From: Bacteroidota bacterium
Lineage (GTDB): Bacteria; Bacteroidota; Bacteroidia; Chitinophagales; Chitinophagaceae
Reading direction: 5' to 3'
Assembly: GCA_026391455.1 (NCBI GenBank)
Contig: JAPLEH010000010.1
Span: forward strand, 62,001-126,000
Length of the DNA stretch: 64,000 nt
Shown piece by piece: positions 36,012-42,353 of the stretch (positions within the stretch are counted from its first letter, which is position 1; every line of letters begins with the position of its first letter). Made by a program: the position numbers and the translations under genes. The notes below the pieces were generated by a model. That model did not search any database and had not been told where the DNA came from. It saw nothing but the letters and a program-made list of their open reading frames with translations.

Positions 36012-36124
36012 CAGTCATTAGTTTTATTTTTTTACCTTAGAGTTAGTCTGATCTATATAACCCACGTTAAATCAACGTCAAGGTGATATCAATCGGCCCA
36101 CACCATCCTTACAAACCTTATGTT

Positions 36125-36688
36125 ATGATTAAAAAATTAACCGGCGAAACCTGGAAGCAACTTACATTTTCCGGGTGGAAGCTACTTCGTAATCGCTATG
36201 CCATCTCGAACCATGGCAGATTAGCAAGTTATAAAGAGAACCTGCTCGAAGACGGCAAATTATTGAATGGGTCGCTCACCACTGGGTATCGTACACTCAA
36301 TCTTCATCGGCCCGGAAGTAAAGGCACCTTGTATGTACACCGCGAAATGGCCAAACTCTTTTTGCCCAAACCAACTGCTGCGCAGAGATATGTTGTACAC
36401 CGCAATCATAATAAACTGGATAACAGTTTAAAAAATCTGAAATGGGCCACGCTGGAGCAAATGATCCAGCATCAGCAGGATAGTCCGGCCAAACGTGCTT
36501 ATAAAAAACAACAATCCACCAAAACTGCCGGTCTCAAATTATCTGCTGCGCAGGTAAAGAAGATCAAAGCCACGCTGGAAAACAAAAGACGGAATATCAC
36601 GATCCGGCAACTGGCTGAAAAATTTGGAGTAAGTGAAATGACCATGTACCGTATCAAAAGCGGTGAAAACTGGGGAAAAGTCAAATAG
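36125..36688 (+). CDS. NUMOD4/HNH endonuclease-like protein with C-terminal HTH
   Basis: NUMOD4-like GWKLLRNRYAISNHGRLASYKE, HNH-like VHREMAKLFLP...YVVHRNHNKLDNSLKNLKWAT, HTH IRQLAEKFGVSEMTMYRIKSGENW. Confidence 0.8.
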   Translation: MIKKLTGETWKQLTFSGWKLLRNRYAISNHGRLASYKENLLEDGKLLNGSLTTGYRTLNLHRPGSKGTLYVHREMAKLFLPKPTAAQRYVVHRNHNKLDNSLKNLKWATLEQMIQHQQDSPAKRAYKKQQSTKTAGLKLSAAQVKKIKATLENKRRNITIRQLAEKFGVSEMTMYRIKSGENWGKVK

Positions 36689-39562: not shown

Positions 39563-39683
39563 TTTCTGTTTTTTTATTATTGTTAAAAATTAGTCTTTCT
39601 ATTCCGAATCGCAATTCAACTATCTGCCTCTCCAACAAACTTCCGTTCGTACACACATTTGTAAATAGCACCCTATAACGAAA

Positions 39684-39707
39684 CAGGCCCTCCGTAAGGA
39701 AGGCCTG
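39684..39707. terminator. Hairpin terminator downstream of the fulvocin-like operon
   Basis: CAGGCCCTCCGTAAGGAAGGCCTG stem with one mismatch and GTAA loop; T-rich on both sides. Confidence 0.55.
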
Positions 39708-39934
39708 CTAAACTTTTATGTTGCTACATACATAACGCTGCAAACCTTCCTCAGGAACGTTTTTTTGTGCGTTTTGTATGTTTCATCATTTTCATCTGTG
39801 CTGTTTGTCGCTTTAGCTCCAGAAATTCATTGGGAAAGTTCCTGTCATGCAACATGCTGATTGAGTTATTAAAATTGCATGTATGAAAATCGGGTGCTTC
39901 GCAAATTTAATACCCATGATGGTTTTATCCAATT

Positions 39935-40318
39935 TTATTTTTCTGCTTTCCCATAAAATGACAGAACGGTGTAAATGCTATCGGTGTTGGATCTGATCAC
40001 CAGTTTTTTGTCAAAGTCGCCGGTATCCGGTGGTTTGAATTGTACGGTAAGCAATACCGAATCCTGGGGAGCGATTTCGTACTTCGTTGCCGTAGGAATG
40101 GTACAGCCGCAGGATGCTGTAACGGTATCGATGGACAAAACTCCCGTACCGGTATTGATCAGACTGTATTGCAGCATATAAGCTGAATCCGCCTTTATCG
40201 TTGCGAGGTCAATCCGGCTTTTCGGAATATGTAACCGGGGCTTCTGTTTTGAAGCAGTGCAGGAAGTCATTAAAACTACCAGCCCAATAAGTTGCATTAG
40301 TTGTAATTGCTTATTCAT
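39935..40318 (-). CDS. DUF1573 domain-containing lipoprotein
   Basis: Lipobox VLMTSC, YSLINTGTGVLSIDTVTASCGCTIPTATKYEIAPQDSVLLTVQFKPPDTGDFDKKLVI. Confidence 0.88.
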   Translation of the reverse strand: MNKQLQLMQLIGLVVLMTSCTASKQKPRLHIPKSRIDLATIKADSAYMLQYSLINTGTGVLSIDTVTASCGCTIPTATKYEIAPQDSVLLTVQFKPPDTGDFDKKLVIRSNTDSIYTVLSFYGKAEK

Positions 40319-41153
40319 TTATTAAATTATTGATGATCCTGTCGGCATTGCCGTAAAATATATTCCAGCCTGTATTCAACTGGCCGGCATAGCGGCATGT
40401 AAAGTGCTTGTCCATAATCAATACAAGCGGCAACCCGTTTGCTGAAAAATGTCTGGCTACAGCGGTATCACTGAAATACATTTTTTCAAAACTATAGGGT
40501 GCAGTAAGACGTGCCAGCACAGCCTCTTTGTCCAGTTTCAGGGGTACATTTAGTGCGATGATACGAACAGCCGTATCGTTACGGTAGCTGTCATACAGTT
40601 TTTGCAGTTCCGGAAATTTTTTGATGCAATTATAACAGGATGTGCTCCAGAGGTCGAACAATATCACTTTTCCCTTCAGATTTTCCGGATCAACAGGCTG
40701 TCTGGCGTAGTTGAGCAACCCCACCCCGTTCATATTTCTAGCCGAGGGCTTCTTTTCGGTGTACGCCCAGGCAAATGTATTGGGCCAGAGAATAAGTCCG
40801 CCAAACGATACCAACAATGATAATATTAATATACTGGCAACCCGTGCTATTCGAAACTGAAGTAATAAAAAAGTGAACAGAAGTGTAGCCCATCCCATAA
40901 TCCAAACCGGATAAGTAGGATATTCCACATCCACCAGCATCGAAACGCCGGTATAGACTATAAAGAAAGGAAGTACAGGCAGGGTACTGGCAGCCGCATT
41001 AATCCCTGTTTTTTTATTTGCAAACACCATTGCCAGTAGAGTAACCACGGGAACAATAACCGTTTGCTTATCCCATCCCAAAGAACCGGATAAAACACAA
41101 ATCATGAAATGAACAAGCGACAACAGTACCGCCTGTACTATCTTTCCTTTCAT
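40311..41153 (-). CDS. Membrane-anchored TlpA/thioredoxin-like protein
   Basis: Several N-terminal TM segments then thioredoxin fold with CxxC: LKGKVILFDLWSTSCYNCIKKFPELQKLYDSY. Confidence 0.88.
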   Translation of the reverse strand: MKGKIVQAVLLSLVHFMICVLSGSLGWDKQTVIVPVVTLLAMVFANKKTGINAAASTLPVLPFFIVYTGVSMLVDVEYPTYPVWIMGWATLLFTFLLLQFRIARVASILILSLLVSFGGLILWPNTFAWAYTEKKPSARNMNGVGLLNYARQPVDPENLKGKVILFDLWSTSCYNCIKKFPELQKLYDSYRNDTAVRIIALNVPLKLDKEAVLARLTAPYSFEKMYFSDTAVARHFSANGLPLVLIMDKHFTCRYAGQLNTGWNIFYGNADRIINNLINE

Positions 41154-41165
41154 ACGTTTCTGCTT

Positions 41166-41813
41166 TTAAAAATTACAGTGACTCCCATAGCATGATTGTA
41201 ACCAAAGCCATCCGCACCCGGTGCTGGAACCTTTGCAATCGTTGGTTCGTTCACAAATACCATTGGTAATGGTAAAACCAGCGGGATACCTTACTTCAAT
41301 TTTTCTGCATGAAAACCCCGAAGAGCCGACATGACAAAAACAGTTTGCCATTCCGCCGGTACCAATATCATCAGGAGCAATCAAACTCATTTGATCAGAA
41401 ACCGGGTCGAATACCAGGTTATATAATTCAACCTGATCAAACAGTTTTTTTGCCGATTCATTCCATTTCGGCATAAAATAATTGGAGAAGATAGCTGCCT
41501 CCCTGGAACTGGGCACGAATACTTCTACGGAAACTGCTGCAAGTAATTCATCGATCTTACTGACACGGGCGGAATTTTCTTCCTGTAAGTACTGTGCTCT
41601 TGCTTTCAACAAATGACGATGCCACAGTTCATACCGCTCCCGGCTGGTAAAAACATCGAACAACTGAATGCGTGTTTGAAAATCGGACGTGTTTAGCAAA
41701 CGCTGTATCCGTGCTTCAGATACAGCATTGTTTTCCTTTTCCGTGATCGTTGATTTGGTGCATGACGCCAGCACAATGACAAGCGCCATCAGCGTAGTTA
41801 ATTGTCTTTTCAT
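41166..41813 (-). CDS. Fulvocin C-related (bacteriocin-like) lipoprotein with 8-Cys C-terminal tail
   Basis: Lipobox VLASC; C-terminus MANCFCHVGSSGFSCRKIEVRYPAGFTITNGICERTNDCKGSSTGCGWLWLQSCYGSHCNF with 8 Cys. Confidence 0.72.
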   Translation of the reverse strand: MKRQLTTLMALVIVLASCTKSTITEKENNAVSEARIQRLLNTSDFQTRIQLFDVFTSRERYELWHRHLLKARAQYLQEENSARVSKIDELLAAVSVEVFVPSSREAAIFSNYFMPKWNESAKKLFDQVELYNLVFDPVSDQMSLIAPDDIGTGGMANCFCHVGSSGFSCRKIEVRYPAGFTITNGICERTNDCKGSSTGCGWLWLQSCYGSHCNF

Positions 41814-42074
41814 ATTGGTACGTTTTGATTAAAGCGCAATACTACAATAATTATAAATTGCTTTTTACTCGTTTTCTCTATAATAGAATTTTATACTTAG
41901 AAAAAATTTTTCGAATCACTTCAAACATGTTTTTTAAAAATTTTCTACTACGTATTCATACATTTTATACCATATTGTTTTTATTTTTAGGTCTGTAATC
42001 CGTTATTATTTCGCACGAATTCTGTTTGTTGCCAGAACGCTTCCCTATTCGTACCACTATTAAAACCTATAGTC

Positions 42075-42293
42075 ATGATTCATCTTAAGATCAGGCAACT
42101 AAGAAAGGATATGGGGCTGACCCAGCAATCCATCGCCCGCCAGTTATGTATCAGTCAAAATGCGTATTCACTTATTGAAAGAGGCCATACCCGTATTGAT
42201 ATTGAGCGGCTGGTTCAAATCAGTAAACTGCTGAAGATTTCTGTTACCGAACTGATCAACCTTGAACTGGCCTTACATCCCGAATGGGAATAA
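42075..42293 (+). CDS. Small XRE-family HTH regulator
   Basis: IRQLRKDMGLTQQSIARQLCISQNAYSLIERGHTRIDIERLVQISKLL. Confidence 0.92.
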   Translation: MIHLKIRQLRKDMGLTQQSIARQLCISQNAYSLIERGHTRIDIERLVQISKLLKISVTELINLELALHPEWE

Positions 42294-42353
42294 AGCTTCG
42301 CTGTCGCCGGACCAACGATTATTTATTCAATTACTAAATACATACCCATACGT

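Follow-up and report, generated by a model that had tools for sequence, protein, structure and literature searches.

The window, a stretch of 64,000 nucleotides from a member of the Chitinophagaceae (contig JAPLEH010000010.1), carries three adjacent genes on its minus strand. The first, ful (gene 1; 41166..41813), encodes a fulvocin C-related lipoprotein of 215 amino acids (aa) with a lipobox (LASC18), a helical domain, and a tail with exactly eight cysteines. The second, tlp (gene 2; 40311..41153), encodes a membrane-anchored TlpA/ResA-like thioredoxin-fold protein of 280 aa with an N-terminal hydrophobic region and a CYNC site at residues 173 to 176. The third (gene 3; 39935..40318) encodes a DUF1573 lipoprotein of 127 aa with a CGC motif at residues 70 to 72. 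The original prediction had described three minus-strand genes, separated by 12 bp in one place and overlapping by 8 bp in the other, a lipobox and eight tail cysteines in the first product, and transmembrane (TM) segments and a CYNC site in the second. The coordinates re-read from the window agreed with this layout, and the protein features were found again, the TM segments as the hydrophobic region. Divergent from ful, a 72-aa Xre-family (HTH_3) regulator is encoded on the plus strand (42075..42293; PF01381, 58.2 bits), which is probably part of the same island and probably regulates the ful/tlp/DUF1573 unit. The original prediction had not mentioned this gene.

The genes lie on an island of approximately 39798..42353, extending from the asd leader to gene 42354. 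This extent is based on the congeners, where asd is the immediate neighbour of gene 42354 and the operon is missing (12 of 12 examined). The Xre gene was also absent from the 12 congeners. At the level of the genus, 3 of 42 genomes had matches, and at that of the family 17 of 399; in the class and phylum samples, the numbers were 9 of 395 and 4 of 398, respectively, with the window genome counted each time. Because the distribution is patchy and the site is empty in the 12 congeners, the gene set looks, from sequence comparison, like an accessory and laterally moving unit. When genome contigs were scanned with the single sequence, no relative was found; an alignment scan of genome contigs gave four loci, at least three of which were already among the loci from the other genome searches. 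A phage or virus origin was considered and rejected, with no match in the searches.

The hairpin (39682..39709, minus strand; fold z = -4.1) that had been assigned to the end of the operon belongs instead to the leader of the downstream asd gene. The hairpin stretch remains in congeners without the operon and is therefore not the operon's; a role as operon terminator was ruled out, the asd leader being conserved where asd adjoins gene 42354. The leader also contains a 14-codon open reading frame (ORF; 39751..39795, minus strand; MKMMKHTKRTKKRS) with the core KHT(K/E)R in congeners. The ORF lists of 11 of the 12 congeners include it, and in the twelfth (L114) it can be read from the DNA. With a short ORF followed by a hairpin, the leader (39682-39795) looks like a transcription attenuator of asd, an aspartate-family gene. 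At the hairpin site, an Rfam match to RsmY reached 26.2 bits, below its gathering score of 57, and was taken as chance. Elsewhere in the window, a plus-strand gene beside ligA (36083-36688) is conserved in congeners; presumably it resembles a homing-endonuclease-type HNH protein.

The ful protein within the fulvocin C-related family

The ful product is a member of the NCBIfam family NF033852 ("bacteriocin fulvocin C-related protein"), which it matched with 73 bits (E = 4.5e-20) over profile positions 5 to 147 of 150, about twice the curated cut-off of this model (NF033852.1; 35 bits). The two parts of the protein also matched separately: the N-terminal 156 residues alone at profile positions 5 to 86 (29.5 bits) and the tail alone at positions 108 to 148. 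The helical pro-domain was placed at residues 29 to 138 (41400..41729, minus strand) from the profile match and the AlphaFold helices, and the 8-Cys fulvocin-type tail at residues 158 to 215 (41166..41342, minus strand), ending two residues past the last cysteine. The tail cysteines are C158, C160, C169, C187, C193, C200, C208, and C213, and the C-terminal module of the family, CxC..C..C..C..GCG..C.G..C, is present. In an alignment of 22 full-length family members, window included, seven tail cysteines were invariant and the eighth was kept in 21, which bears out the expectation that homologues would conserve the cysteine spacing. On a tail HMM that excluded the window, the ful tail reached 27.9 bits, whereas 500 shuffles that kept the cysteines in place reached at most 19.4; its cysteine pattern is thus not due to chance. 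The commonest tail Cys spacing in the family is 1-6-5-4-6-7-3 and that of the window ful is 1-8-17-5-6-7-4; the long loop and the four residues before the last Cys (usually three in the family) are common to the window ful and the member at locus L035.

Fulvocin C is reportedly a product of Myxococcus fulvus, described by Tsai and Hirsch in 1981. The 45-residue sequence used in the comparisons is assumed to be that of the peptide. It matched NF033852 at positions 108 to 148, the same positions as the ful tail, and scored 31.6 bits on the tail HMM, compared with a maximum of 14.9 for 500 Cys-fixed shuffles. With ful over the curated cut-off and its tail on the profile positions of this peptide sequence, the relation to fulvocin C that had been proposed from the sequence holds at the HMM level. 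The mature peptide presumably starts at the NCxC point, where the family tails also start, and the family tails end a median of three residues after the last Cys. Because of this start and this end, the fulvocin module is placed as a releasable peptide would be. There are also differences between the two. The known form of fulvocin C is the free peptide, whereas ful has the form of a lipoprotein precursor that carries a helical domain and lies in a redox cassette; the 17-residue loop between the third and fourth cysteines of ful is longer than that of fulvocin C; and the last Cys pair of fulvocin C, in the sequence assumed here, is spaced unlike that of the family. According to the reference list of PMC8708641, fulvocin C was sequenced in 1981. 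Almost nothing on the peptide beyond this sequencing was found in the full-text literature, and no report was found on the activity of any Bacteroidota family member.

Thioredoxin-like and DUF1573 neighbours of ful

The tlp product matched a ResA-type model with an E value of 2.9e-9, but under the curated cut-off of that model, and Thioredoxin_8 with 24.5 bits, just below the cut-off of 27; no curated Pfam cut-off was passed. Its homologues at L041 and L055 do pass the Pfam cut-off. In addition to the CYNC site, tlp has Pro 242 at the cis-Pro position, and the CxxC and this Pro were invariant in an alignment of 19 tlp homologues. A low-confidence model placed helices at residues 2-25, 27-49, 53-73, 81-98, and 102-132; its thioredoxin part had a block-mean pLDDT of 52 to 88. 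No Pfam match to MauE was found in tlp or its homologues. The genome has a single protein of the full-length TM-TlpA type; the other matches cover just the thioredoxin part or little more. Gene 3 matched PF07610 (DUF1573) with 70 bits against a cut-off of 26.1 and carries a lipobox together with its CGC motif. DUF1573 also exists in a selenoprotein form in which the motif reads UGC (PMC9312934), and for this reason the CxC motif points to a redox role. Gene 3 has the domain and the CxC motif in common with this selenoprotein form, OS_HP2; unlike it, gene 3 encodes a lipoprotein, lies in an operon with a putative Cys-rich substrate, and has no selenocysteine.

Of 26 loci, 18 had a TlpA-like gene and 11 a DUF1573 gene next to ful and in its orientation; elsewhere in 320 kb of flanking sequence, there were three TlpA-like matches and one DUF1573 match. 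Because the TlpA-like and DUF1573 profiles were built from the same 26 loci that they scored, seven further loci were held out; a TlpA-like gene was adjacent at five of these and a DUF1573 gene at three. In total, a membrane-anchored TlpA-like gene was adjacent at 23 of 33 family loci and a DUF1573 gene at 14 of 33; on the sequence examined, 10 loci had no adjacent same-strand TlpA-like gene and 19 had no DUF1573 gene. The co-occurrence of 8-Cys tails with TlpA-like and DUF1573 genes, raised as a question in the original prediction, is thus real, held-out loci included. The opposite outcome, homologues lacking the Cys spacing or the neighbours, was checked and was not the pattern observed. A divergent Xre-type gene was present upstream of ful at six of the 33 loci (the window, L027, L028, L040, L129, and L131). 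On a Bacteroides finegoldii plasmid, the neighbouring genes are annotated as DUF1573, fulvocin C-related, and TlpA. The members on Streptomyces plasmids had no annotated TlpA neighbour, and in the S. goshikiensis protein, a CxxC stretch near the N-terminus matched no Pfam family.

Several other arrangements were observed among the family loci. On Streptomyces plasmids, L056 (5464-6411) and L057 have an N-terminal CxxC stretch, an internal Tat-like signal, and then a fulvocin-related part. L048 (7072-7389, 7367-7759) consists of no more than a signal peptide followed by the tail, and lies beside genes for a DCC1-like thiol-disulfide oxidoreductase and a TlpA-like protein. At L028 (7541-9302), one fulvocin-related gene is followed by two tandem TM-TlpA-like genes, and the same genome has a second fulvocin-related locus, L040. 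At L031 (6914-7237) and L035 (7328-7756), the gene between ful and DUF1573 encodes a small membrane protein that has no thioredoxin domain. These TM-only proteins were considered as homologues of the tlp membrane domain; because the similarity was weak or none, only their position is noted.

The arrangement has parallels in two known systems. PedC increases the potency of pediocin (PMC4919988), and in Streptomyces, MauE/MauD occur beside precursors with at least eight Cys (PMC7794033). Pediocin PA-1 (class IIa), a bacteriocin with disulfides, likewise has a thioredoxin-like accessory of its own, PedC, encoded next to it. In contrast to that system, no ABC transporter or immunity gene was conserved here among the partly annotated neighbours, export would be that of a lipoprotein, and the Cys number eight rather than four. 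MauD/MauE, found with the methylamine dehydrogenase beta-subunit and with Cys-rich RiPP candidates, similarly place a membrane-bound thioredoxin-like partner by a Cys-rich exported product; in tlp, by contrast, a single protein combines the membrane part with the thioredoxin part. No paper on NVEALA peptides as a parallel was found. A description of the cassette was not found in the full-text literature, a search whose scope leaves most subscription papers outside and which is weak as a sign of absence. The locus had been put forward as an under-described system, and this held in part: ful is less under-described than claimed because its family already has a curated, named entry at NCBI, and the surrounding cassette appears to be an undescribed variant.

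Possible maturation and role of the fulvocin-type module

We consider it fairly probable that the island was laterally acquired and encodes a disulfide-rich fulvocin C-type module with a dedicated maturation cassette. In this model, ful would be exported by Sec and lipidated at Cys18, yielding a lipoprotein pre-pro-peptide in which a helical pro-domain of about 135 residues precedes the C-terminal 8-Cys module. The tlp and gene 3 products would act in the periplasm as dedicated thiol-disulfide partners that make or proofread four disulfides. This maturation role is suggested because the adjacency recurs, the CxxC and Pro of the TlpA-like proteins are invariant, DUF1573 has a CxC motif, and PedC and MauE/MauD provide precedents. 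The divergent Xre protein would control the ful unit. The folded module, possibly after proteolytic release, would most likely be a weapon against related bacteria, and we give a killing function somewhat less than an even chance. Cleavage of the tail and an immunity role for the tlp membrane domain are, like killing, conjectured. The loci that have no adjacent TlpA-like or DUF1573 gene, the Streptomyces members, and the Cys-pair spacing in which fulvocin C departs from the family all speak against the model.

Because its pro-domain is confidently helical (block-mean pLDDT of 60 to 93 in the AlphaFold model), ful may also act uncleaved. The 8-Cys part would then stay on the helical domain as a binding or structural domain of an envelope lipoprotein, and the TlpA-like and DUF1573 proteins would serve for folding only. 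The pro-domain is common to the family and a lipobox was found in most members, both consistent with this reading, as is the gene content around ful, where no protease, exporter, or immunity gene was conserved by position and size among the partly annotated flanking genes. The structure prediction proposed as a check gave no confident fold for the tail (pLDDT of about 30 with a five-sequence alignment), which counts against the module model, and ful had no match in the PDB by sequence, nor its model by fold. However, the peptide that the tail matches is reported to be a bacteriocin of 45 residues in free form, a tail-only member exists (L048), and the distribution is very patchy. We regard an uncleaved lipoprotein as rather unlikely.

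A secreted signal or contact-dependent competition factor under Xre control, not a diffusible bacteriocin, would be in keeping with the recurrent divergent Xre gene and with lipid anchoring, but there is no receptor or sensor gene nearby. In Bacteroidetes, K-(D/E)2 or Q-A-(D/E)2 after the lipid Cys is the surface-lipoprotein export signal, LES (PMC5080379). This signal is absent from ful (CTKSTITEKE from the lipid Cys onward), which speaks against such a factor, and among the homologues it was clearly fitted only by L044 (CSKEEV). We judge this explanation to be improbable. A thiol-redox or metal-binding relay, with the 8-Cys protein as a redox partner or metal carrier and not a disulfide-locked substrate, would suit the two redox-type neighbours and the CxC in both ful and gene 3, but it is very improbable, as eight cysteines at fulvocin-like spacing better suit four structural disulfides and the family alignment has no invariant His or Met.

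Returning to the fulvocin C-type module with its maturation cassette, a further step would be a hitherto undescribed class of Bacteroidota bacteriocins, made as lipid-anchored pro-proteins, with folding by TM-TlpA and DUF1573 proteins, Xre control, and self-protection through the tlp membrane domain. Such a class is doubtful at present; if it were true, DUF1573 could be assigned a function as a partner in disulfide handling. The cassette provides a concrete and testable partner set for the fulvocin C peptide family. It also hints at what DUF1573, a widespread domain of unknown function, may do. Altogether, the analysis places the fulvocin-type family in Bacteroidota, a Bacteroides plasmid included.
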